Positions 16,112 through 30,298 of a stretch of DNA of 64,000 nt are shown piece after piece. Origin of the DNA: Immundisolibacterales bacterium (GTDB lineage Bacteria; Pseudomonadota; Gammaproteobacteria; HK1). The first letter of the stretch is position 1, and each line of letters opens with the position of its first letter. A program made the translations under genes and the position numbers. The stretch lies in the NCBI GenBank assembly GCA_026712715.1, contig JAPOPW010000009.1:1-64000 (forward strand), in the 5' to 3' direction. Under the pieces are notes generated by a model. That model saw only the letters and a list, made by a program, of their open reading frames with translations, ran no database searches and was not told the origin of the DNA.

Positions 16112-16709
16112 AAGTCGCCGAATCCGTCCGGACGCTCCCGAGCGTCTGTCCGCTGGACTGCCCGGGCATCGGCCGAGCCGCCTGCCGGCGGGGTCGGCGC
16201 TCGCCGTGACCACCGTCGACGGCGCCGAGCCGATGATGTGCGCCACCGTTCGGCCCGCGACTCCTTCGGGCCGCATCGAGTTCTTCAGCCGCGATCTCGA
16301 GGTCCGGATCGGGTACGGCCTGCCGCGCTACGAGGCGGGCGAGCGGGCCTATCCGCTCACCATCATCTCCCCGTCCTCGGCGAAACGGACCAACGCGACC
16401 TTCGGCAACTGCGCGCTCTCCGGAGCTCGTGCGGAAGAAGTCGAGATCAACCCCGCGGACGCGGCTCCCCGCGGCATCTGCGACGGCGACGTGCTCTGGG
16501 TCTGCAACGAGCGCGGCGAGACCCACCTCGTCGCGAGGACCACCGATGCGGTGCTGCCGGGAGTCCTCTACACTCCGAAAGGCGTCTGGCTCCGGGCGAG
16601 CCCTACCGGCCAGACCGTCAACGCGCTGCTCGACGCCGACGTTCGCACCGACATCGAGTACGGCGCGTGCTGCAACGAGGCGTACTGCGACGTGGCGCGG
16701 GTCGCCTGA
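16108..16709 (+). pseudogene. molybdopterin oxidoreductase with a large internal deletion
   Basis: ATG 16108 has a strong ribosome site (GGGAGGAGG) and opens with SVRTLPSVCPLDCPG, the N-terminus of a DMSO-reductase-family oxidoreductase (the first cysteines of its Fe-S site). After about 20 codons the sequence changes frame, and from 16206 encodes only the C-terminal dinucleotide-binding domain: TVRPATPSGRIEFFSRDL, ERAYPLTIISPSSAKRTNAT, VEINPADAAPRGICDGDVL and YTPKGVWLRASPTGQTVNAL. A normal protein has about 700 residues, so some 500 residues including the cofactor-binding core are missing. It was probably co-transcribed with the P450. Confidence 0.85.
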
Positions 16710-17261: not shown

Positions 17262-18992
17262 GTGAGCGGAACGAACCCCCGGCCGTCCGCGGGTCATCCG
17301 ACCCACGACGAGGCGGTGGCCGATCTCACCGCGCCCGGCGCGGAGTTCGAGCTGGCCACCGAGACCATTCGCGGGGTCGAGTACACCGTCTTTCGCAACC
17401 TGCCGACCTCGCTCCGGGGCCTCTACGACCAGGCGCGGCAGGACCACGGCGAGAAGGACTTCCTGGTCTTCGAGGACACGCGCCTCACCTACGGCGAAGC
17501 CCATGCGCGGGCGGCCGCGATCGCGCATCAGTTGTTCCACCGCTACGGCGTCGAGAAGGGCGATCGGGTGGCGATCGGGATGCGCAACTGCCCGGAATGG
17601 GTCATCGCCTTCATGGCGATCACCTCGTGCGGCGCGATCTGCGTTTCCCTCAACGGCTGGTGGTCCGGAGAGGAGCTCGAGTACGGCCTTGAGGAGAGCG
17701 GCGCAAGGCTCGCGTTCCTCGATCGGCCACGCCACGAGCGGTTGGCCGACCGTCTTCCCCGATTGCGCGTCGACACCATCGGCGCACGCTGGGACGACGA
17801 CCTGCCCGAAGGCGTCGTCGACTTCGACCGGCTCCGGCGAGACGCCGCGGGCGAGCCGATGCCGGACGTCGAGCTGACCGGCGACGACGACCTGGCGATT
17901 CTCTTCACCTCCGGCACGACCGGATTCCCGAAGGGAGCCGTGTCGACCCATCGCGCCGTCCTGCTCGCGCTCGCCACCTGGCGCTTCTACGCCGCCGTGC
18001 GGATCGCCACCGGATGGCTCGAAGCACCCGAAGAGAACCCCGAGTTCCAGCCGTCGATCCTGTTGCCAGTGCCGCTGTTCCACGTGACCGGCAGCCACAT
18101 CGGTCTCCTCTCGTCGCTCGGCGTCGGCCGCAAGATCGTGATGATGCGAAGGTGGGACCCGGAGGTGGGCCTGGATCTCATCGAACGCGAACGGGTCACA
18201 TCCTTTCTCGGGGTTCCGACGATGACCTGGGAGATGCTGCATTCGCCGTCCCTCCCGCAGCGCGACCTTCGGAGCCTCGTCGCGGTCACCGGCGGCGGTG
18301 CGCCGAATCCAGGCGGCATGATGGAGCGATTGCAGGAACGAATGCCGGACCAGCACTGGTCGTTCGGCTGGGGCATGACCGAATCCAACGCCGGCGGCAC
18401 CAGCAATTCGGACGAGGACCTCGTAGAGCGACCGGACAGTTGCGGCCGGCCCTCCCCGATCGTCGAATTCAAGGTGATCGACCGCGACGGCAACGAGCTG
18501 CCGCCGGGCGGGCGGGGCGAGCTGATCATGAAGTCGCCGACGAACATGCGTTGCTACTGGCGGCAGCCGGAGGCCACCGCGGAGACGATCCGGGACGGGT
18601 GGCTTCGCACCGGCGACATCGCCGAGATCGACGAGGAGGGCTACGTCTTCATCCGCGACCGGGTGAAGGAGATGGTGCTGCGCGGCGGCGAGAACATCTA
18701 CTGCGCGGAGATCGAACGCGTGGTGTACCTGCACCCGGCGGTGTTCGAGGCGGCCGCGTTCGGGGTCCCCGACGAGCGCCTGGGCGAGGAGCTGGCCGTG
18801 GCGGTGATGCGAAGGCCGGGCGCCGAGCTCGACCCGGCGGCGGTGCGGGCGCACGTGGCCGAGCACCTCGCCCGGTTCAAGGTGCCGCGCTACGTGTGGC
18901 TCCGGGATGAGCCGCTGCCCCGCGGGTCCACCGGCAAGATCCACAAGCGCGTCCTGCGAGACCGGATGCTGCACGAAGAGGCGGTCGGGTAG
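17262..18992 (+). CDS. AMP-forming acyl-CoA synthetase / ligase
   Basis: A 576-residue ANL-superfamily enzyme. The P-loop-like motif ILFTSGTTGFPKGAVSTHRA, the A5-type region WSFGWGMTESNAGGT, the hinge motif WLRTGDIAEIDEEGYVFIRD and the C-terminal catalytic lysine region PLPRGSTGKIHKRVLRDR are all intact. It activates a carboxylic acid to its CoA thioester via an adenylate; the substrate is unknown. GTG 17262 is the chosen start, since the family-like sequence begins soon afterwards. The next gene begins 3 bp after its stop, so the ligase is probably in one operon with the UGSC selenoprotein locus. Confidence 0.9.
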   Translation: MSGTNPRPSAGHPTHDEAVADLTAPGAEFELATETIRGVEYTVFRNLPTSLRGLYDQARQDHGEKDFLVFEDTRLTYGEAHARAAAIAHQLFHRYGVEKGDRVAIGMRNCPEWVIAFMAITSCGAICVSLNGWWSGEELEYGLEESGARLAFLDRPRHERLADRLPRLRVDTIGARWDDDLPEGVVDFDRLRRDAAGEPMPDVELTGDDDLAILFTSGTTGFPKGAVSTHRAVLLALATWRFYAAVRIATGWLEAPEENPEFQPSILLPVPLFHVTGSHIGLLSSLGVGRKIVMMRRWDPEVGLDLIERERVTSFLGVPTMTWEMLHSPSLPQRDLRSLVAVTGGGAPNPGGMMERLQERMPDQHWSFGWGMTESNAGGTSNSDEDLVERPDSCGRPSPIVEFKVIDRDGNELPPGGRGELIMKSPTNMRCYWRQPEATAETIRDGWLRTGDIAEIDEEGYVFIRDRVKEMVLRGGENIYCAEIERVVYLHPAVFEAAAFGVPDERLGEELAVAVMRRPGAELDPAAVRAHVAEHLARFKVPRYVWLRDEPLPRGSTGKIHKRVLRDRMLHEEAVG

Positions 18993-18995
18993 AGT

Positions 18996-20153
18996 ATGGC
19001 CGCGCGCCGGCCGCCGGTGGCGGACGGCGCCAATCGCTCGCAACCGGAGTCCGCGCCAGCCGTCATGGAGCTCGCGTCCAGCGTCCACGAGGCCCCCGAC
19101 TTCGCCGCCGCCCAGGAGCTCTTCCACAGCCGCGGCTGGACGGACGGTCTTCCCGTCGTCCCGCCGACCGAAGACGCGGTCGCGGCCTGCCTCGAAGCGG
19201 CGGTCATGCCCCCCGAGCACGTTCTCGGCGTCGAGCCGGTCCGGGGCCGGCCGGTGACGGCGGAGAAGGTCGCCGTCAACACGGTGATGGCGGGCGGGCT
19301 CCCGCTTCACTTCCCGGTCGTCGTCACCGCGCTCTCCGCCATGCTCCGCGAGGAGTTCACCCTGCACGGGGCGACCGCGAGCACCGGCGGGTGCGCGGTC
19401 CTCATCGTCGTCAACGGCGACGAGCGCCTCCGGCTCGGCATGGACGGCACCTTCAACGCGCTCGGCAACAGCGACCGGGCGAGCGCGGTGGTCGGGCGGG
19501 CGATCCGGCTTTGCCTCATCAACCTCTTCGACGTCCGCCCGGGCGGCATCGACCGCTCCACCCTCGGGCATCCGGGGAAGCTCGGATTCTGCATCGCGGA
19601 GGACGAGGAAGGGTCGCCCTGGGAGCCGCTCGCCGCGGAACGCGGGGTCCCGGACGGCGCCTCGGCGGTCACCGTGATGGCGGCGGGCGCCCCGCGCCAG
19701 ATCATGAACGAGTGGACCACCGAGCCCGAGGAGATCCTCGAGACCTTCGCGGCCGAGATCCGGGCGAACATGCGCCAGTACTCGATCTGGCCCGGGAACT
19801 ACGCGATCGTCATGCCCCCGCAGCTTCGCGAGCACTTCGCGGCGGCCGGCTGGTCGCGCGCGGACGTCCGCGAGCGCCTCTTCGAGCGGGCCCGCATCCG
19901 TCGCGGCGAGTGGGCCACGGTCGGGAAGGGCCGGGTGGTGGGCGACAAGGGCGAGCGCGAGTACCGGGCGCTTCCGGACCCGGAGCACCTGCTGCTGGTG
20001 GCGGCCGGCGGTCCGGCCGGCGGGTTCGGAGCGGTCATTCCGCCCTGGCTCGGAGACAAGAGCCGGGCGGTGACCCTCGCGATCGGGGCGTGCCTGGACT
20101 GCGGACCGCCGCCGGCGGAGGCGGACGCGACCGACGACGCGCCGCCCGGATGA
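18996..20153 (+). CDS. conserved protein of unknown function paired with the UGSC selenoprotein
   Basis: A 385-residue soluble protein that I do not assign to a named enzyme. Features: AAQELFHSRGWTDGLPVVPP, RPVTAEKVAVNTVMAGGLPL, a Gly/Cys loop ATASTGGCAVLIVVNG, NSDRASAVVGRAIRLCLINL, and a late motif LLLVAAGGPAGGFGAVIPPW; the C-terminus ends with CLDC. The start may instead be ATG 19065, as the first 23 residues look poorly conserved. It lies 3 bp after the acyl-CoA ligase and 157 bp before the selenoprotein. The neighbourhood suggests a redox or CoA-linked catabolic role; that is inference only. Confidence 0.6.
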   Translation: MAARRPPVADGANRSQPESAPAVMELASSVHEAPDFAAAQELFHSRGWTDGLPVVPPTEDAVAACLEAAVMPPEHVLGVEPVRGRPVTAEKVAVNTVMAGGLPLHFPVVVTALSAMLREEFTLHGATASTGGCAVLIVVNGDERLRLGMDGTFNALGNSDRASAVVGRAIRLCLINLFDVRPGGIDRSTLGHPGKLGFCIAEDEEGSPWEPLAAERGVPDGASAVTVMAAGAPRQIMNEWTTEPEEILETFAAEIRANMRQYSIWPGNYAIVMPPQLREHFAAAGWSRADVRERLFERARIRRGEWATVGKGRVVGDKGEREYRALPDPEHLLLVAAGGPAGGFGAVIPPWLGDKSRAVTLAIGACLDCGPPPAEADATDDAPPG

Positions 20154-20310
20154 CCGCCCGTGGCTGCCCCCTCGACCGTACGCGGCGCAAGGCTCGGCGA
20201 AGGGCCCGGCGCACCGGCAAATCGCGCTCGCCCGCCCGCGGGCTTCTTCCCGAACGGTCCGATGTACGAGAATGGCCCGGCCGGCGGCCGATGAAGAGGA
20301 GGATGACTAC

Positions 20311-20835
20311 ATGACCCTGCGCGTGCTCGATCCGACCTTCGAGGAGGGCGCGGCCGGCTTCACCCCCGCTCCCCGCCTCGCGGGGCTCGAAGGCGCGACC
20401 GTCGGCATCATCTCGAACGGCAAGAAGGGGACCGCCCCGTTCTTCGCCCATCTCGCCGGACTCCTTCGCAGCCGGCACGGGGCGGCCGAAGTGGTGGTCC
20501 GGGTCAAGCGCAGCTTCAGCGCCCCCGCCGAGGCGGCGCTCATGGACGAGGCGGCGCAATGGAGCGCGGCGATCGCCGGGGTCGGGGACTGAGGAAGCTG
20601 TTCGTCGTGCAGTCTGCACGACGCGATCCTGACCGAGCGGCGGGGGGTCCCGGCCATCGGGATCATGACGGACCGGTTCGTGAGCGCGGCCGACGAGATG
20701 CGGCGGGTGCTCGGCATGCCCGACTACCCCTTCGCGGTGATGGACCACCCGATCAGCAGCGCCTCGACCGTGGCGCTCGAGCGGCAGGCGGAAGCGGTGC
20801 TCGAGCGGAGCCTGGGGCTGATCCTGCGCGCCTGA
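20311..20835 (+). CDS. UGSC-family selenoprotein (TGA at 20590-20592 read as selenocysteine)
   Basis: Reading through the in-frame TGA at codon 94 gives a 174-residue protein. The first part (MTLRVLDPTF to IAGVGD) and the continuation (GSCSSCSLHDAILTERRG, GIMTDRFVSAADEMRRVLGM) join without a frame change to make the redox motif Sec-Gly-Ser-Cys. UGSC proteins were recognised as a selenoprotein family in marine metagenome surveys; cysteine homologues have CGSC. A hairpin of SECIS type follows the TGA (20603-20623). ATG 20311 is chosen for its GAGGAGG site; an in-frame ATG at 20272 lacks one. The alternative, a nonsense pseudogene, is unlikely because the downstream frame is conserved to its own stop. 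Confidence 0.85.
20603..20623 (+). promoter_or_regulatory. bacterial SECIS-like hairpin
   Basis: A perfect 9-bp stem, cgtcgtgca (20603-20611) with tgcacgacg (20615-20623), closed by a GUC loop. It starts 10 nt after the UGA and puts a loop G 20 nt downstream of it, in the range needed for SelB recognition of a bacterial SECIS (a short stem with a G in the apical loop). The hairpin is also coding sequence, as is usual for bacterial SECIS elements. Confidence 0.75.
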
Positions 20836-20983: not shown

Positions 20984-21880
20984 GTGAGAATCGACTGCCG
21001 CGAGAAGGCGGCGGCCCGTCTCGACCGCATGGAGGCCGAGGCCGTCCGCTTCGAGCCGCGCCTCGCCGACCACTCCACCGCGTGGCGGCGATGGGGGGAA
21101 GCGGGGCCGGCCGTGGTCCTCCTGAATGGCGGGACCGGGTCCTGGATGCACTGGGTGCGCAACATCCCGGCCCTCGGGGACCGCTATCGCGTGTTCGCGG
21201 CCGATCTGCCCGGCATGGGGGACTCGGGCCTCCCGCCCGTCACGGAGCCGGTCGAGGATCTCGTGCGGATCAGCGCGACGATCATCGCCTCCGGCATCGA
21301 AGGGCTGCTCGGGCGCTCCGAGCCCGTCCACATCGTCGGCTTCTCGTTCGGCTCGATGGTCGGAGCGCACGCGGCGGCCCGGCTCGGGACCCGGGTCGAG
21401 ACCTTCACGATGGTCGGGGCGTCCGGTCTCGGGCTCGCCTTCGCGGGGCCGGGGCGTCTCCGGAAGCCGGAGCCGGGGATGAGCGAAGACGAGCTCCGGG
21501 AGATCCACCGGCACAACATGACCACCTTGCTGTTCGCGGACCCCCGAAACGCGGACGAGCTCGCCCTCGAGATGCAGGTACGGAACGCCGGCAACGTGCG
21601 CATCCGTTCCCACACCTCGGCCGTCACTTCGATCCTCCTCGAGGCGCTCCCCGAGATCCGCGCCCGCCTCGGCGCGATCTGGGGCGGTCTGGACCCATTC
21701 CTCCCCGCCCGCGACGAGCGCGAGGCGCTGCTCCGCCGCTTCGACCCCGATACCCCCATCCACATCGTCGAAGGCGCCGGGCACTGGGTTCCCTACGAAG
21801 GGGCGGAGGGGTTCAACCGGTGCCTGCTCGGGCTCCTGGAGCGGGGAGCCCTCCCGCCAGGAGAGCCGGCGGCGGACTGA
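20984..21880 (+). CDS. alpha/beta hydrolase
   Basis: A 298-residue alpha/beta-fold hydrolase. The oxyanion region VVLLNGGTGSWMHWVRNIP, nucleophile elbow HIVGFSFGSMVGAHA (Ser), acid loop IWGGLDPFLPARDE (Asp) and HIVEGAGHWVPYEGAE (His) give a complete catalytic triad. Close in pattern to C-C-bond hydrolases and esterases of aromatic catabolism, but the substrate is not readable. GTG 20984 is preferred because the EKAAARLDRMEAEAVRFEP segment fits family N-termini; ATG 21029 is the alternative. It follows the selenoprotein by about 150 bp and may belong to its operon. Confidence 0.82.
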   Translation: MRIDCREKAAARLDRMEAEAVRFEPRLADHSTAWRRWGEAGPAVVLLNGGTGSWMHWVRNIPALGDRYRVFAADLPGMGDSGLPPVTEPVEDLVRISATIIASGIEGLLGRSEPVHIVGFSFGSMVGAHAAARLGTRVETFTMVGASGLGLAFAGPGRLRKPEPGMSEDELREIHRHNMTTLLFADPRNADELALEMQVRNAGNVRIRSHTSAVTSILLEALPEIRARLGAIWGGLDPFLPARDEREALLRRFDPDTPIHIVEGAGHWVPYEGAEGFNRCLLGLLERGALPPGEPAAD

Positions 21881-23559: not shown

Positions 23560-24738
23560 ATGAAACGTTCACCATTCGCGGCCGGCACGGCCGCTGCCGT
23601 GCTCGCGGCCGCCTGGATGCACGCGGTACCGGCGAGCGCCGAGACCGGCGTCACCGACGACACGATCAAGATCGGCGCCCTCGGGGTGCTGACCGGCCCC
23701 AACGCCAAGTTCGGCGACACCATCTACAACGGCGTCGAAGCGGTGTACAAGGAAGCCAACGCCACGGGCGGCATCCACGGCCGCATGATCGAGTACGTCC
23801 GCGAGGACGACCGCTGCCAGGCCTCCGAGGCCGTCGGTGCGGTCAAGAAGCTCATACACCAGCACGAGGTGTTCATGATCCACGGCGGCGCCTGCTCCAA
23901 CGCGAGCCTCGCCGCGAAGCCCGAGATCGTGGCCGCCGACGTCCCCTGGGTGATCACCGCGTCAACCGCCTCGTCCCTCACCGACCCCGTGCATCCCCGC
24001 ATCTTCACCACCATGCTCGCGGGATGGATGGAGAGCTACGCGCAGGTGCAGTACGCGATCGACCTCGGGATGGAGCGGATCGCCATCGTCGCCCAGCATG
24101 ACAACTGGGGCCGCAGCCGCTACGACCCGCTCATCGAGGCGTTCAAGCTCCATGGCATCGAACCGGTGGCGGACGAAGAGATTGCCCCCGATCCGACCGA
24201 CGGGACCCCGCAGGCGCTCCGCCTCCAGGCCGCGCAGGCCGACGCCGTCATCCTCATTCTCTTCCCCAAGGCCGCGGCGGTGATTCTCCGCGACGCATAC
24301 AAGATCGGCTACAAGCCGTTTCTCATCGGCGGCTCGACGGTGGGCGATGTCGGGGTGTTCGCGAACAACGTCGGCATCCCGGGCGCGGCGGACAAGCTGC
24401 ACGCCGTCTCCACCATCGGGTACACCGCGGACGATCCGGCCATGGCCGAATGGAAGGCGAAGGTCGAGGCCGCGTTCCCCAACGACACGTTCAACATCTA
24501 CCACATGTTCGGAATCGCGAGCGGGCAGTTCGTGGTGGAGGCGCTCAAGCGCGCCGGCCGGGACCTCACCCGCGAATCGGTGAGCCAGGCGATGAACGAT
24601 CTCTCGGTCGAGACCGACCCGTATGCGGGGCCGATCACCTGCACGCCGACCGACCACCAGTGCCACAACAACGCCGCCTGGTTCGGCCTCGTGGACGGGG
24701 TCACCAAGCGGGTCGGGGTCACTGCGGTCACCCGCTGA
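23560..24738 (+). CDS. livK: branched-chain amino-acid/amide ABC transporter, periplasmic binding protein
   Basis: A 392-residue type I periplasmic binding protein. A Sec signal peptide (ending PASAETG, cleavage near residue 27) precedes TDDTIKIGALGVLTGPNAKF, then REDDRCQASEAVGAVKKLIH, HGGACSNASLAAKPEIVAA, AIVAQHDNWGRSRYDPLIEA and AVILILFPKAAAVILRDAYK. This is the LivK/AmiC-like Leu-Ile-Val-binding family. It heads the five-gene transporter operon and has a strong GGGAGGAGAG site. The amidase and NIPSNAP genes nearby suggest that amides or related compounds, rather than leucine, may be the cargo; that is inference. Confidence 0.92.
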   Translation: MKRSPFAAGTAAAVLAAAWMHAVPASAETGVTDDTIKIGALGVLTGPNAKFGDTIYNGVEAVYKEANATGGIHGRMIEYVREDDRCQASEAVGAVKKLIHQHEVFMIHGGACSNASLAAKPEIVAADVPWVITASTASSLTDPVHPRIFTTMLAGWMESYAQVQYAIDLGMERIAIVAQHDNWGRSRYDPLIEAFKLHGIEPVADEEIAPDPTDGTPQALRLQAAQADAVILILFPKAAAVILRDAYKIGYKPFLIGGSTVGDVGVFANNVGIPGAADKLHAVSTIGYTADDPAMAEWKAKVEAAFPNDTFNIYHMFGIASGQFVVEALKRAGRDLTRESVSQAMNDLSVETDPYAGPITCTPTDHQCHNNAAWFGLVDGVTKRVGVTAVTR

Positions 24739-24890
24739 CGATTGCCGCGGCCGCGCTCGATTGAAGCATTGGACGCCAGGGATACGCCCCCCGCCCCGGG
24801 GGGCGTGACAATCGTCGCCGTCGCATCGCCCGCCGTCGTGGACGGCCGGGCGGGCTGCGGCGCCCGCACCGGAGTCCGTCTCGGAGTCGG

Positions 24891-25775
24891 ATGATGTTCG
24901 CGTATCTCATCGCAAGCGGCATATCGACCGGCGCGCTTTACGCGATGGTCGCGATCGGCCTCGTCCTCGTCTACCGCTCGACCGGCCACATCAACTTCTC
25001 GCACGGCGAGCTCTTCATGTTCGGGGGCTTCATCGCCTACACCTGCTTCGTCATCCTCGGGATGCCGTACTTCGTGTCGCTCGTCGTCGCGGTGATCGGC
25101 GGGTTCGCGCTCGGGGTCCTCTGCGACCGCACCGTGTACCGGCCCCTCATCAAGGCTCCGGCGCTCACGATGGTTCTCGCGACCGTCGGCTTCTCGTTCC
25201 TCATCAAGGGGGTCGCGCGCTTCTTCTGGGGCGCCCGGGAAGGCGGCGACTACGTGGCGTTCCCCGCCGCGGTGGACCCCTCCCCGATCCCGGTCGGCGG
25301 CATCATGGTCTTCCCCCAGCAGCTCCTCGTGCTCGGGGGCGCGTTCTTCTTCGTGGTCGTCTTCACCATCTTCTTCCGGCGCACCCGCTGGGGAAAGATG
25401 ATGCAGGCGACGGCGGAGAACGCGACCGCCGCGTACCTCTCCGGGATCCGGGTCGAGCGCGTCTACACCATGACCTGGGGCACGGGGGCGTGCATCGCGA
25501 GCGCCGCCGCGGTGCTGATGGCTCCGCTCACCCTTCTCTCGCCGGACGTCGGCTTCAACCTCCTCCTGCGCGCGTTCGCGGCCACCGTGCTCGGCGGGCT
25601 CGGGAGCATGCCGGGGGCGATCATCGGCGGCTTCCTCGTCGGCATCATCGAGTCGCTCGCCGGGGGGTACATCCACACCGGCCTCCAGGAAGTCTCCGCC
25701 TTCATCATCATCATCGTGGTGCTCGTGTTCCGGCCGGCGGGGCTCTTCGGCATCCGTCGACTTCGCGAGACCTGA
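24891..25775 (+). CDS. livH: branched-chain amino-acid/amide ABC transporter, permease
   Basis: A 294-residue LivH-type permease with about eight membrane helices (IASGISTGALYAMVAIGLVL, GFIAYTCFVILGMPYFVSLV, LLVLGGAFFFVVVFTIFF, EVSAFIIIIVVLVFRPAGLF). The family sequences INFSHGELFMFGGFIAY and ATVLGGLGSMPGAIIGGFLV (coupling loop to the ATPase) are present. It lies 152 bp after livK and 14 bp before livM. Confidence 0.93.
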   Translation: MMFAYLIASGISTGALYAMVAIGLVLVYRSTGHINFSHGELFMFGGFIAYTCFVILGMPYFVSLVVAVIGGFALGVLCDRTVYRPLIKAPALTMVLATVGFSFLIKGVARFFWGAREGGDYVAFPAAVDPSPIPVGGIMVFPQQLLVLGGAFFFVVVFTIFFRRTRWGKMMQATAENATAAYLSGIRVERVYTMTWGTGACIASAAAVLMAPLTLLSPDVGFNLLLRAFAATVLGGLGSMPGAIIGGFLVGIIESLAGGYIHTGLQEVSAFIIIIVVLVFRPAGLFGIRRLRET

Positions 25776-25789
25776 GGCGCGCCGCGTCG

Positions 25790-26755
25790 ATGCTGCGGTT
25801 GTTCTCGCGCCGGAACGTGATGGCGGCCGGGGTCGTGTTCTTCGCGCTCCTTCCGTTCTTCGCGAACCCCTACGTTCTGTTCATCGGCAACCTCGCCCTC
25901 ATGTACATCCTGCTCTCGGTCGGGCTCAACATGCTCCTCGGCTATGCGGGCCAGCTCGCCTTCGCGCACGCGGCCCTGTTCGGGGTCGGGGCGTACACGA
26001 CGGGCCTCCTCAAGCTCGAGCTCGGCCTCCATTACGGGCTTGCCCTCGTCGCGGGGGTCGGCCTCGCGACGGTGACGGGACTCGCGGTCGCGTTGCCGGC
26101 GCTGCGGCTCCGGGGGCTCTACCTCGCACTCGCCACCGTCGCCTTCGCGCAGGCGACCCTGTGGGTGTTCACCCACTGGAATTCCGTTACCTACGGCGGA
26201 GCGGGGTTCCGTGTCCCGCCGCTCGACTTCGAACCCTTCACCTCGCGCCCGGACATCGGGGTCTACGTCCTCACCTTCGTCATCGTGCTCGTGAGCGTTC
26301 CGCTCGGCTGGAACATGCTCCGCTCGCGGGTCGGCCGGGCCTGGGTCGCGATCCGCGAGAGCGAGGTGGCGGCGGAGTCTCTCGGCATCGACATCACCCG
26401 CTACAAGTCCATCGCCTACGTCGTGAGCGCGATGTACGCAGGCGCCGCGGGCGGCCTCTTCGCGGGGATGCTCGGCATCGTGACCCCGGAGTCGTTCGAC
26501 CTCTTCCAGGTGATCGTCCACTTCTGCATGGTGATCGTGGGCGGGCTCGGCTCGCTCTGGGGCGGTGTCCTCGGCGCGGTGGGCCTCGTCGGACTCCAGG
26601 AGGTGCTGCGGGCGTTCCGGCACCTTCAGGAGATCGCGTTCGGGGGCCTCATCCTGTTCACGGTGCTCGTCATCCCGGGGGGTGCGGTCTCCCTTCTCAA
26701 GCGCTACGTGCCGGGATGGAAAGAGCCGCTTCGAAGGACGGAGCACGACGAGTGA
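25790..26755 (+). CDS. livM: branched-chain amino-acid/amide ABC transporter, permease
   Basis: A 321-residue LivM-type permease. LSVGLNMLLGYAGQLAFAHA and ALFGVGAYTTGLLK are the signature first half; SEVAAESLGIDITRYKSIAY and MVIVGGLGSLWGGVLGAVGL contain the cytoplasmic EAA-like loop that meets LivG/LivF. It is co-transcribed with livH. Its stop codon overlaps the first copy of a duplicated GTGAGCAAGC start signal that is repeated 59 bp later before livG. Confidence 0.93.
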   Translation: MLRLFSRRNVMAAGVVFFALLPFFANPYVLFIGNLALMYILLSVGLNMLLGYAGQLAFAHAALFGVGAYTTGLLKLELGLHYGLALVAGVGLATVTGLAVALPALRLRGLYLALATVAFAQATLWVFTHWNSVTYGGAGFRVPPLDFEPFTSRPDIGVYVLTFVIVLVSVPLGWNMLRSRVGRAWVAIRESEVAAESLGIDITRYKSIAYVVSAMYAGAAGGLFAGMLGIVTPESFDLFQVIVHFCMVIVGGLGSLWGGVLGAVGLVGLQEVLRAFRHLQEIAFGGLILFTVLVIPGGAVSLLKRYVPGWKEPLRRTEHDE

Positions 26756-26810
26756 GCAAGCTCCGGGCGAGCGAAGCCGAGGCGCCGCGCCGCGGGACGG
26801 AGAACGGGGG

Positions 26811-27581
26811 GTGAGCAAGCTCCGGGCGACGGACATCTCGATCTCGTTCGGTGGCCTGAAGGCCCTCGACTCGGTGGGGATCGACGTCGAGGCGGGCGAG
26901 ATCCGCGGCATCATCGGCCCGAACGGAGCGGGCAAGACCACCCTCCTCAACGTCATCTGCGGCATCGACCCCCCCGACACCGGCACCGTGTGGCTCGACG
27001 GCGAGTCCATCAACGGACTCAAGACGAGCCAGATCGCGGATCGCGGCATCGGTCGGACGTTCCAGACCACGAAGCTCTTCAAGGGCATGACGGTCCTCGA
27101 GAACGTCATGACCGGTCTGCACGGGAAGATGCGGGCGAACCCCCTCGCCGCCGCGTTCAGCTTCCGAAGCGTGCTCCGCGAAGAAGCGGGGGCGGCCCGT
27201 CGCGCCCGCGAGGTGCTCGAGTTCGTGCGCATGCTGGAGTTCGCCGATGAGGAGGCGACCTCGCTCTCGTTCGGTCAGCAGCGGCTCGTGGAGATCGCGC
27301 GGGCGCTCGTGAGCGAGCCCGAGGGGCTGCTCCTCGACGAGCCGGCGGTGGGTCTCAGCCTGACCCGGGTGACCGAGGTCGACGAGCTCCTGCGTCGGAT
27401 CCGGCTCGAGCGCGGGGTCACCATCTTGATGATCGAGCACGTGATCCGACTCGTCATGGGGGTCTGCGACCGGATCACGGTGCTCAACGGGGGGCGGAAG
27501 ATCGCGGACGGGACGGCGGACGAAGTGATGGCCGACGCCGAGGTCGCGGAGGCATACCTCGGAGCGGAGCTCGATGCTTAG
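26811..27581 (+). CDS. livG: branched-chain amino-acid/amide ABC transporter, ATPase
   Basis: A 256-residue ABC ATPase: Walker A GPNGAGKTTLLNVI, LivG-type insertion RTFQTTKLFKGMTVLENVMT, signature LSFGQQRLVEIARAL (in place of LSGGQ), Walker B GLLLDEPAVGL and switch His IEHVIRLVM. The LSFGQQ signature is common in LivG proteins. It starts with GTG 26811; an older start may have been the identical GTGAGCAAGC at 26752, overlapping the livM stop. It overlaps livF by 8 nt. Confidence 0.93.
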   Translation: MSKLRATDISISFGGLKALDSVGIDVEAGEIRGIIGPNGAGKTTLLNVICGIDPPDTGTVWLDGESINGLKTSQIADRGIGRTFQTTKLFKGMTVLENVMTGLHGKMRANPLAAAFSFRSVLREEAGAARRAREVLEFVRMLEFADEEATSLSFGQQRLVEIARALVSEPEGLLLDEPAVGLSLTRVTEVDELLRRIRLERGVTILMIEHVIRLVMGVCDRITVLNGGRKIADGTADEVMADAEVAEAYLGAELDA

Positions 27582-28293
27582 GGTCGAGCACCTGAGCGTC
27601 TGGTACGACGTCACCGAGGTGATCCGCGACGTGACCTTCGAGGTCCCGGAAAACGACGTGGTGGCGCTCCTCGGCGGCAACGGCGCGGGCAAGACCACCA
27701 TCCTCAACACCCTGAGCGGGCTGCTCGAGCCGCGGCGCGGATCGATCACCATCGACGGGCGGCCGGTCGAAGGGTGGCACCCGCAGACGATCGTGAAGGC
27801 GGGCATGGTGCAGGTGCCGCAGGGGCGGTTCGTGTGGCCGGGGATGAGCGTCGAGGACAACCTCGTGCTCGGGGCGATCACGCGGCCGCGGAGCGAGCGG
27901 GACGCGATCGCGGCGGACATGGACGAGGTGTTCGACATGTTCCCGGTGCTGCGCGAGCGGCGCCGCGGGTTCGCGGCGAGCCTGTCCGGCGGCGAGCAGC
28001 AGATGCTCGCGATCGGGCGCGCCCTCATGGCCCGGCCGCGGCTCCTCCTCATGGACGAGCCCTCGCACGGGCTCTCGCCCCTGATGGTCCGCCAGATGGT
28101 GGTCGCGATCCGGCGCCTGCACGAGCGGGGGATGACCATCCTCCTCGTCGAGCAGAATGTCGGGGTGGCCGCGGCGGTCTCGAAACTCGCCTACGTGCTC
28201 GTGAACGGTGAGATCGAGTTCTCGACGCCGGGGGCGGAGCTCGCCGACAACCCGGACATTCTCCGGAGCTACCTCGGAGGCGGGCGGTACTGA
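27574..28293 (+). CDS. livF: branched-chain amino-acid/amide ABC transporter, ATPase
   Basis: A 239-residue ABC ATPase: Walker A GGNGAGKTTILNTL, QVPQGRFVWPGMSVEDNLVL (LivF-type Q-loop region), signature SLSGGEQQMLAIGRALM, Walker B RLLLMDEPSHGLSPLMV and the following VEQNVGVAA. It is the last gene of livKHMGF, and a SnoaL-like gene follows after 44 bp, probably in the same transcript. Confidence 0.93.
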   Translation: MLRVEHLSVWYDVTEVIRDVTFEVPENDVVALLGGNGAGKTTILNTLSGLLEPRRGSITIDGRPVEGWHPQTIVKAGMVQVPQGRFVWPGMSVEDNLVLGAITRPRSERDAIAADMDEVFDMFPVLRERRRGFAASLSGGEQQMLAIGRALMARPRLLLMDEPSHGLSPLMVRQMVVAIRRLHERGMTILLVEQNVGVAAAVSKLAYVLVNGEIEFSTPGAELADNPDILRSYLGGGRY

Positions 28294-28337: not shown

Positions 28338-28796
28338 ATGACGCGAACGGGCGACGGCCCGGATCGGGTATCCGCCGAGGCGTACACCGCGATCCAGAAT
28401 CTCTACGCACGCTACAACTGGTGCAGCGACGCGGGTGACGCCGATGGCTACGCGGCGTGCTTCACCGAGGACGGCGAGCTCTCCCTGCCCGGGGTCGGGC
28501 TCCACATCCGGGGCCGGGACGACCTGCGCGAATTCAAACGCCAGGACAAGGCCCGGCGTGGGCGTCGGATCCGCCGCCACTGGAACAGCGGTCTCTGGCT
28601 CGTGGCGATCGACGCCCAGACCATGCGGGGACGGTGCTATCTCCACGGCTATGACGGGACACCGGGGGAGGCGCCGGTCCTGAGCGACATCGGAGCCTAC
28701 GAAGACACGATCGTACGCCGCGAAGGCGAATGGCGGTTCGCAAAGCGGGTGATCACGATGGACCACAGCGCATTCCGGCCACCCCCCCAATCGTGA
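28338..28796 (+). CDS. SnoaL-like / NTF2-fold protein
   Basis: A 152-residue NTF2-like cone-fold protein: AIQNLYARYNWCSDAGDADG and YAACFTEDGELSLPGVGLHI at the N-terminus, HWNSGLWLVAIDAQTMRGRC in the middle and YEDTIVRREGEWRFAKRVIT at the end, which is the family's W-R-F strand. Such proteins act as small hydrolases, isomerases or dehydratases, or as subunits of ring-hydroxylating enzymes. It has a clear ribosome site (GAGAGGAG) and lies between livF and the amidase. Confidence 0.82.
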   Translation: MTRTGDGPDRVSAEAYTAIQNLYARYNWCSDAGDADGYAACFTEDGELSLPGVGLHIRGRDDLREFKRQDKARRGRRIRRHWNSGLWLVAIDAQTMRGRCYLHGYDGTPGEAPVLSDIGAYEDTIVRREGEWRFAKRVITMDHSAFRPPPQS

Positions 28797-28807
28797 GGAG
28801 CGAAGCA

Positions 28808-30298
28808 TTGGACCAGGACATCACGAGCCTCTCGGCCGCGCGGCTCGCGCGGGAGGTCGGCGAACGCAAGGTGAGCGCCCGGGAGGTCGCCGCGGCGATG
28901 CTCGCCCGGGTCGACGCTCTCAACCCGACCCTGAACGCCATCTGCACCCTGAACGACGCGGCCCTCGACGAGGCGGACGCGGTCGACCGGCGGCTCGCGG
29001 GCGGCGCCGCGGCCCGCCCGCTCGAAGGGGTGCCGGTCGTCGTCAAGGACAACATCTTCACCCGGGGAATCCGGACGACCTTCGGGTCGAAGATTCTCGA
29101 GCATGACGTCCCGGAGGAAGACTCGATCTGCGTCGAGCGCCTGCGGGCGGCGGGCGCGGTCGTGCTCGGCAAGGCCAACACCCCCGAGTTCGCGCACGAC
29201 GTGAACACGACGAATCCCCTCTTCGGGACCACCCGCAATCCGTGGAACGTCAACCACACCGCGGGGGGATCGAGCGGCGGCACGGGCTCGGCGGTCGCCG
29301 GAAGGCTCGCGCCCGCAGGTCTCGGCACCGATCTCGGGGGGGCGATACGCATCCCCTCGTCCTTCAACGGCCTCGCCGGCATGCGGCCGGCCCCGGGGCG
29401 GGTCGCGTTCTACCCGACCGAGTTCGGCTGGGACACCCTGGTCGCGCACGTCCAGGGCCCGATGGCCCGGACGGTGGAGGACGTCGGCCTGGTGCTCGAC
29501 GTGCTGTCGGGGCCGGACGACCGCGACCCGATGTCCCTGCCCGAACAGGGGCTCGACTTCGCGGCCGCCGCGCGGGGGCCGGCCGATCCCGCGGGCCTCG
29601 CCGGGACGCGGCTCGCGCTCAGCATCGACCTTGGCGGGCTCGTCCCGGTCGAGCCGGAGGTCGAGTCGCTCGTGCGCCGGGCGGCGCGCGACCTCGAGTC
29701 CCTCGGCTGCCTGGTCTCCGAGACCTTCTTCGACAACTCGAGCCTCGCCGAGATCATCTTCGGCACCCGCGGCTTCGGGATGATCGCACGCTATACCGAG
29801 CGCTACGAACGCCACCGCGACGTCATGACCCCGCCGCTCATCAACCAGATCGAGGCGGCCCGGGAGGTGGACGTGCAGGCGGTCGCCCGCGCCGAGCGCC
29901 TGCGGACCGACTACTGGCAGCGGGTGCGGGCGCTCCTCGAGCGTCACGACTTCATCATCACCCCGGCCTGCGGAGCGCCCGCGTTTCGCCTCGACCGGCC
30001 CCTTCCGGACGAGGTCGGGGGTCGCAAGGTCGAGCGCTACTACGACATCTTCCTCACCGCGTACACGTTCTCGGTGACCGGGCTGCCCGCGATGTCGATC
30101 CCCTGCGGCTTCACGAGCGATGGCCTCCCCGTCGGCCTGCAGGTCGTCGGCCCGCGGCTGCGCGAAGACCTCCTCCTCCGTTTCGCGGCCGGGTTCGCGG
30201 CCGCCCACCCAGAGCACTACCGCTCCCCGGAGGTCGATCCCGCCGCTGCGATACCCGTCGAGGAGGCATTCTCGAGCCCCGGCCTCGTCGTCCGCTGA
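28808..30298 (+). CDS. amidase-signature family protein lacking the nucleophilic serine
   Basis: A 496-residue amidase-family protein with TTG start behind GAGGAG. The catalytic lysine (VVVKDNIF, K80) and the cis-serine motif (AGGSSGGTGSAVA, S155) are present. The conserved GGSIRIP that carries the nucleophile reads GTDLGGAIRIPSSFNG here, placing Ala at residue 179, exactly 24 residues after the cis-serine as in active amidases. The codon is GCG in a run of seven G. It is therefore either an inactive or re-purposed member, or a sequencing or mutational change. It follows the amide/amino-acid transporter, which suggests an original role in amide hydrolysis. Confidence 0.85.
   Translation: MDQDITSLSAARLAREVGERKVSAREVAAAMLARVDALNPTLNAICTLNDAALDEADAVDRRLAGGAAARPLEGVPVVVKDNIFTRGIRTTFGSKILEHDVPEEDSICVERLRAAGAVVLGKANTPEFAHDVNTTNPLFGTTRNPWNVNHTAGGSSGGTGSAVAGRLAPAGLGTDLGGAIRIPSSFNGLAGMRPAPGRVAFYPTEFGWDTLVAHVQGPMARTVEDVGLVLDVLSGPDDRDPMSLPEQGLDFAAAARGPADPAGLAGTRLALSIDLGGLVPVEPEVESLVRRAARDLESLGCLVSETFFDNSSLAEIIFGTRGFGMIARYTERYERHRDVMTPPLINQIEAAREVDVQAVARAERLRTDYWQRVRALLERHDFIITPACGAPAFRLDRPLPDEVGGRKVERYYDIFLTAYTFSVTGLPAMSIPCGFTSDGLPVGLQVVGPRLREDLLLRFAAGFAAAHPEHYRSPEVDPAAAIPVEEAFSSPGLVVR

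Follow-up and report, generated by a model that had tools for sequence, protein, structure and literature searches.

The window, i.e. the whole stretch of 64,000 nucleotides analysed here, contains a UGSC selenoprotein gene whose reading frame runs through a TGA at codon 94 and continues for 80 further codons up to its stop; both the coordinates and the codon number given in an earlier note, made from the DNA alone, were correct. Upstream of this gene lies an ORF encoding a partner protein, and the two are flanked by genes for an acyl-CoA ligase and an alpha/beta hydrolase (Table 1). With the TGA translated as selenocysteine (Sec), the surrounding sequence reads GVGD-U-GSCSSCSLHDA, with the motif U94 G95 S96 C97. 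The Pfam profile PF24696 (UGSC) matches the whole product (E 3e-49, 167.7 bits vs. a cut-off of 25), while the NCBIfam profile NF041046 gives 122.6 bits, slightly below its cut-off of 125. The note had mentioned UGSC proteins as a reported selenoprotein family. Taken on its own, the selenoprotein of the window is a new member of the known family PF24696.

Table 1. Features of the UGSC locus and its flanking genes (positions within the window)
Feature	Position	Strand	Remarks
Acyl-CoA ligase (AMP-binding), context gene	17262..18992	+	directly beside the pair elsewhere only in sister genome L037
Partner protein, 385 aa, without a named family	18996..20153	+	near-obligate UGSC neighbour
AGGAGG ribosome-binding site	20297..20302	+	8 nt before the UGSC ATG at 20311
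UGSC selenoprotein gene	20311..20835	+	174 residues with predicted Sec94; stop TGA 20833-20835
In-frame TGA, putative Sec codon (codon 94)	20590..20592	+	Cys at this site in relatives; purifying selection downstream
Predicted SECIS hairpin	20603..20623	+	9-bp stem, GUC loop, begins 10 nt past the TGA
Alpha/beta hydrolase, context gene	20984..21880	+	beside the pair elsewhere only in sister genome L037

The earlier note had proposed that selenocysteine is inserted at this TGA, to be checked by a search for the Sec machinery and for relatives with Cys at the site, and both searches bore it out. The genome assembly (5.05 Mb in 82 contigs, 97.9% complete, 5.0% contamination) encodes SelA and SelB next to each other on contig C80 and has tRNA-Sec and SelD close together on contig C66, all of them exceeding curated cut-offs. 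Each of the five UGSC copies of this genome contains exactly one in-frame TGA. Among the UGSC genes sampled at GTDB loci, TGA occupies the Sec site in all but that of Nakamurella (DCAGC), the motif of one locus (L106) being UAAC; Cys replaces Sec in Arthrobacter, Variovorax, Roseovarius and haloarchaeal plasmids. Comparison of the window gene with its sister gene in L037 yielded dN/dS values of 0.39 before the TGA and 0.14 after it, and the downstream frame is thus under purifying selection. Comparative sequence evidence of this kind identifies TGA 20590-20592 as a selenocysteine codon.

Two groups of sequences depart from this pattern. UGSC-partner fusions in Sporomusa termitida and Vibrio europaeus plasmids (L150:8308-10032 and L151:8344-10029), located near aconitase X genes, have MGTS at the UGSC position, i.e. 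neither Sec nor Cys; to judge from this motif, they show that some members of the UGSC family are presumably incapable of Sec/Cys chemistry and do something else. In another UGSC copy (L123/L127; G277:C6 12789-13246) the Sec position is occupied by Cys, the frame is split, and a TGA stands at a different place (SEKF-TGA-PAG, where a relative has Trp); this appears to be either a gene in decay or an error in the sequence.

The hairpin following the TGA had also been described correctly, and it is conserved well beyond the window. Its nine pairs are perfect in the window; when the same stem was scored at 78 distinct Sec sites, 603 of the 702 possible pairs were present, compared with 396±13 (maximum 444) in 1000 synonymous recodings, for which the codon usage of each locus was used and the fixed stem pairs were scored. 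The Ser codon in the loop is AGT in all 67 cases in which Ser is encoded, although AGT accounts for only 262 of the 2536 Ser codons (~10%) of the same genes. Where residues of the stem change, compensatory changes are seen: pair 15-27 passes from GC to CG, AU or GU, and pair 18-24 from CG to GC. The segment G20-U21-C22-U23-G24-C25-A26-C27, counted after the TGA, agrees in both sequence and spacing with E. coli fdhF (a sequence verified across 5,368 E. coli genomes). The decisive test for a SECIS is that of fixed pairs under synonymous recoding, whereas the folding energy per site, which reached p<=0.05 in 32% of sites, is a weak one; a search of the hairpin against Rfam returned no match. The marks of a bacterial SECIS, i.e. 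a hairpin just 3' of the UGA, GU in the apical loop and conservation beyond coding need, were all found, and on comparative grounds the window hairpin is a conserved SECIS element.

The gene upstream had been regarded in the earlier note as linked to UGSC by context only. The pairing stands, but the linkage is far stronger than this, as the two are near-obligate neighbours, repeatedly fused and present in five parallel copies. The five UGSC genes and five partner genes of this genome occupy the same five places and are adjacent at each: on contigs C29 and C5 both are encoded in one frame running through the TGA, with UGSC first; on C10 UGSC lies ahead of the partner, and on C13, as in the window, the partner lies ahead of UGSC. 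Of 398 genomes of the phylum, five have UGSC, and exactly these five also have the partner, adjacent every time. With the window's own genome left out, the chance of a four-out-of-four co-occurrence among the remaining 397 is near 1e-9 by simple counting that ignores relatedness. Of 80 GTDB loci found via the partner alone, 78 contain UGSC; the other two end at contig edges, and one of these displays the first 39 UGSC codons. Mirror-tree analysis gave a correlation of r = 0.94 between UGSC and partner distances (shuffled maximum 0.20), to which shared genome descent contributes. In essentially every genome examined, the partner adjoins UGSC or is fused with it, and the pairing is near-obligate. 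The available part of the 2008 GOS study (PMC2398784) describes UGSC as occurring alone or fused to a domain called Unknown_1, and it is probably this domain that corresponds to our partner. Fusions of UGSC with the partner occur both in this genome and elsewhere; what the accessible text of that study reports as a fusion appears here as one form of a general rule of pairing.

No family in Pfam or NCBIfam matches the product of ORF 18996-20153, which is nonetheless a real, conserved protein, with relatives of up to 91% identity and an AlphaFold model of pLDDT 90. Its fully invariant residues include D50, G51, P53, R168, D186, E202 and W209. None of its cysteines is fully invariant, the window copy having Gly where most relatives carry Cys101. 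Structure comparison of the partner produced weak matches within the commonplace range, on which no fold was assigned to it (a chorismate-mutase-like segment at Z about 6 as the best, then fumarase alpha at Z 5.7 and Toblerone-fold hydrolases at Z about 5), and profile comparison revealed no relation to GrdE (P 0.7). Neither UGSC nor the partner had a credible match in sequence searches of the PDB, and no relatives of the partner were found in viral contigs.

In one clade, covering 13 loci that include the C13 copy of this genome, the partner has an extra N-terminal domain with an invariant CxTC and VPT. The best PDB matches of a profile of this domain are thioredoxins (E 9e-6), its single members scoring weakly in Pfam. 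Moreover, trxB-trxA lie immediately upstream of the partner and UGSC on an Arthrobacter plasmid, and trxB is found near the pair in Variovorax, Roseovarius and two further loci (L076 and L089). The pair is thus tied to thioredoxin both by fusion of a thioredoxin domain to the partner and by adjacency of genes for thioredoxin and thioredoxin reductase.

UGSC itself is predicted to be a single flavodoxin-like domain. AlphaFold gives it a doubly wound fold of five strands (pLDDT 94), in which Sec94 lies between strand 3 and helix 3; its structural neighbours are generic flavodoxin/Rossmann-like folds. The top match, chain 8s7v_H of the MCR activation complex (Z 11.0), was set aside, as it stands barely above these generic folds. 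In the available part of PMC2398784, UGSC was considered probably to have a thioredoxin fold; this guess is unsupported by the predicted model, whose five strands and flavodoxin/Rossmann-like neighbours were checked against thioredoxin topology, structure comparison being in itself unable to exclude a family.

Profile comparison pointed to a more specific relationship. UGSC aligned with GrdB/PrdB-like proteins, i.e. protein B of glycine and proline reductases, with an hhalign probability of 95.6 (P 1.3e-8), the Sec of both families falling in the same column and the ERxGIP and HP[IL] regions also matching. The match persisted when the UxxC columns were masked in both profiles (P 5e-7) and when the set was reduced to only four full-length GrdB sequences (P 7e-8); reversed, block-shuffled and unrelated decoys scored at most 27.6, compared with 48-58 for UGSC and GrdB. 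It spans about 70-85 columns, and part of the similarity could stem from a common Rossmann-like fold. UGSC thus most likely has a common origin with the C-terminal domain of glycine/proline reductase protein B, the domain that carries its Sec and in which UxxC likewise follows a beta strand. The two families nevertheless differ: UGSC is without the N-terminal domain of GrdB and lies below Pfam detection for PF07355, which gave no hit to the five UGSC paralogues at E up to 10. Glycine reductase differs further in its pyruvoyl subunit; no GrdE/PrdA (PF09338) was found in this genome, where UGSC pairs with an unrelated partner instead.

GrdB/PrdB-like proteins matching PF07355 are present in 31 of the 45 UGSC-bearing genomes, and most of them are selenoproteins. 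They include short proteins with UPxC (e.g. G000:C50, L117), which often share genomes with UGSC and also have Sec in a UxxC motif, but match PF07355 clearly, have a longer N-terminal region and were not seen beside a UGSC partner. One of them is the second kind of selenoprotein of the present genome (L117:1162-2680; G000:C50 around 98006-98413), with an in-frame TGA in ...LLTPV-U-PNCTRAV...; this genome is without any GrdE.

The genes neighbouring the pair vary between genomes. The earlier note viewed the pair, together with the ligase and the hydrolase, as a candidate catabolic unit with a selenium-dependent step. This is borne out insofar as other pairs lie among genes for CoA-transferases, acyl-CoA ligases, tripartite tricarboxylate/TRAP transporters, and LLM and SDR oxidoreductases, but the specific arrangement of ligase and hydrolase around the pair is shared only by the window and sister genome L037. 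The context genes, considered without a background rate, suggest a role in the catabolism of small organic acids or CoA-esters. On both an Arthrobacter and a Natrinema plasmid, the pair has a gene annotated as phosphosulfolactate synthase nearby (L142:6803-7591 and L143:5853-6320), which may hint at the substrate.

Glycine reductase and D-proline reductase are known to use their Sec to break a C-N bond via a selenoether, and thioredoxin is the electron donor of glycine reductase (PMC10298544). With modest confidence, we favour the view that the UGSC pair is a two-subunit, selenium-dependent, thioredoxin-driven reductase with Se-C chemistry, related to GrdB/PrdB. UGSC would be the catalytic subunit, with Sec94 following strand 3 where helix 3 begins, while the 385-residue partner would be the second, probably substrate-binding subunit, filling the place of GrdE in glycine reductase. 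By homology to glycine/proline reductase, the selenolate of Sec94 would attack an electrophilic carbon of the substrate held by the partner and expel the leaving group, Cys97 would resolve the Se-C intermediate to form a Se-S bond, and a thioredoxin that either docks on the partner or is fused with it would reduce this bond and be recharged by thioredoxin reductase. The substrate may be a small organic acid or a CoA-linked compound. The Sec coding, the SECIS, the near-obligate pairing and fusion, the thioredoxin fusion or adjacency and the GrdB homology are the computed components of this model, to which we add, by inference, the subunit roles, the chemistry and the type of substrate. Since the partner is not GrdE-like and the genome is without GrdE, the model leaves substrate activation unexplained.

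Other explanations have to be considered. It is extremely improbable that translation ends at the TGA or that this codon is an assembly error, with the downstream frame untranslated: a 106-codon ORF does end at this TGA, but nothing else was found in favour of such a reading, and it conflicts with the retention of the TGA in dozens of independent genomes, the Cys found in its place in some relatives, a SECIS whose conservation exceeds what coding requires and the low dN/dS (0.14) of the frame that follows. More plausible, though still unlikely in our opinion, is that UGSC acts as a general thiol/selenol oxidoreductase (of the thioredoxin, peroxidase or disulfide-reductase type), with the partner as its protein substrate or scaffold. 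Such a role was guessed at in the available text of PMC2398784, and it accords with the UxxC motif, the thioredoxin domain fused to the partner and the adjoining trxA/trxB; the reading of UxxC as a redox motif in the earlier note is likewise reasonable. Homology, however, favours chemistry of the glycine/proline reductase type over a generic thioredoxin-like motif, given the profile relationship of UGSC to GrdB, and the confidently modelled UGSC is predicted to be a five-strand flavodoxin/Rossmann-like domain rather than a thioredoxin fold. In addition, D50, R168, D186 and E202 of the partner, all invariant, fit a small-molecule site, and a fully invariant Cys is absent.

Somewhat less probable again is that the pair forms an enzyme that binds a substrate or works without redox chemistry, in the manner of a lyase or isomerase, and that its Sec/Cys site was acquired or lost secondarily. 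The Sporomusa and Vibrio fusions, which keep both domains without Sec or Cys and reside near aconitase X, would suit such an enzyme, as would the weak fold similarity of the partner to class I fumarase and Toblerone-fold hydrolases, but nearly all sampled members retain Sec or Cys, and the fused thioredoxin domain and the neighbouring trxB genes imply a redox turnover.

UGSC is among the commonest selenoprotein families of marine and freshwater metagenomes (in GOS metagenomes mostly in the Sec form, with 255 Sec vs. 21 Cys sequences according to the accessible part of PMC2398784), and the literature searched gives no function for it. What is new here, and is added to the family (PF24696, NF041046), is the near-obligate partner, the thioredoxin link and the probable GrdB ancestry. 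Partner, thioredoxin and glycine/proline reductase fold together turn UGSC into a testable enzyme with defined subunits, electron donor and catalytic residues. If the reductase model is true, the Se-C bond chemistry of anaerobic amino-acid fermenters would be widespread among environmental bacteria that live in other ways, and the same chemistry, in a Cys form, would occur in haloarchaea. A broader proposal, advanced here only tentatively, is that UGSC and its partner might be a widespread, pyruvoyl-free counterpart of glycine/proline reductase, performing thioredoxin-driven C-X cleavage via selenoether chemistry, with several copies per genome acting in parallel on different substrates (organic acids or CoA-linked compounds), mostly in bacteria that do not ferment amino acids.

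Two further observations concern the surroundings of the locus. Upstream in the window, a short ORF (16206-16709), in which only a C-terminal molybdopterin dinucleotide binding domain was matched (E 8e-18), adjoins a cytochrome P450 ORF (13793-16111); it is perhaps a fragment, or else a domain that unusually stands alone. Downstream of the pair lies a cluster encoding an ABC transporter of the branched-chain amino acid type (23560-28293), followed by an amidase gene (28730-30298).
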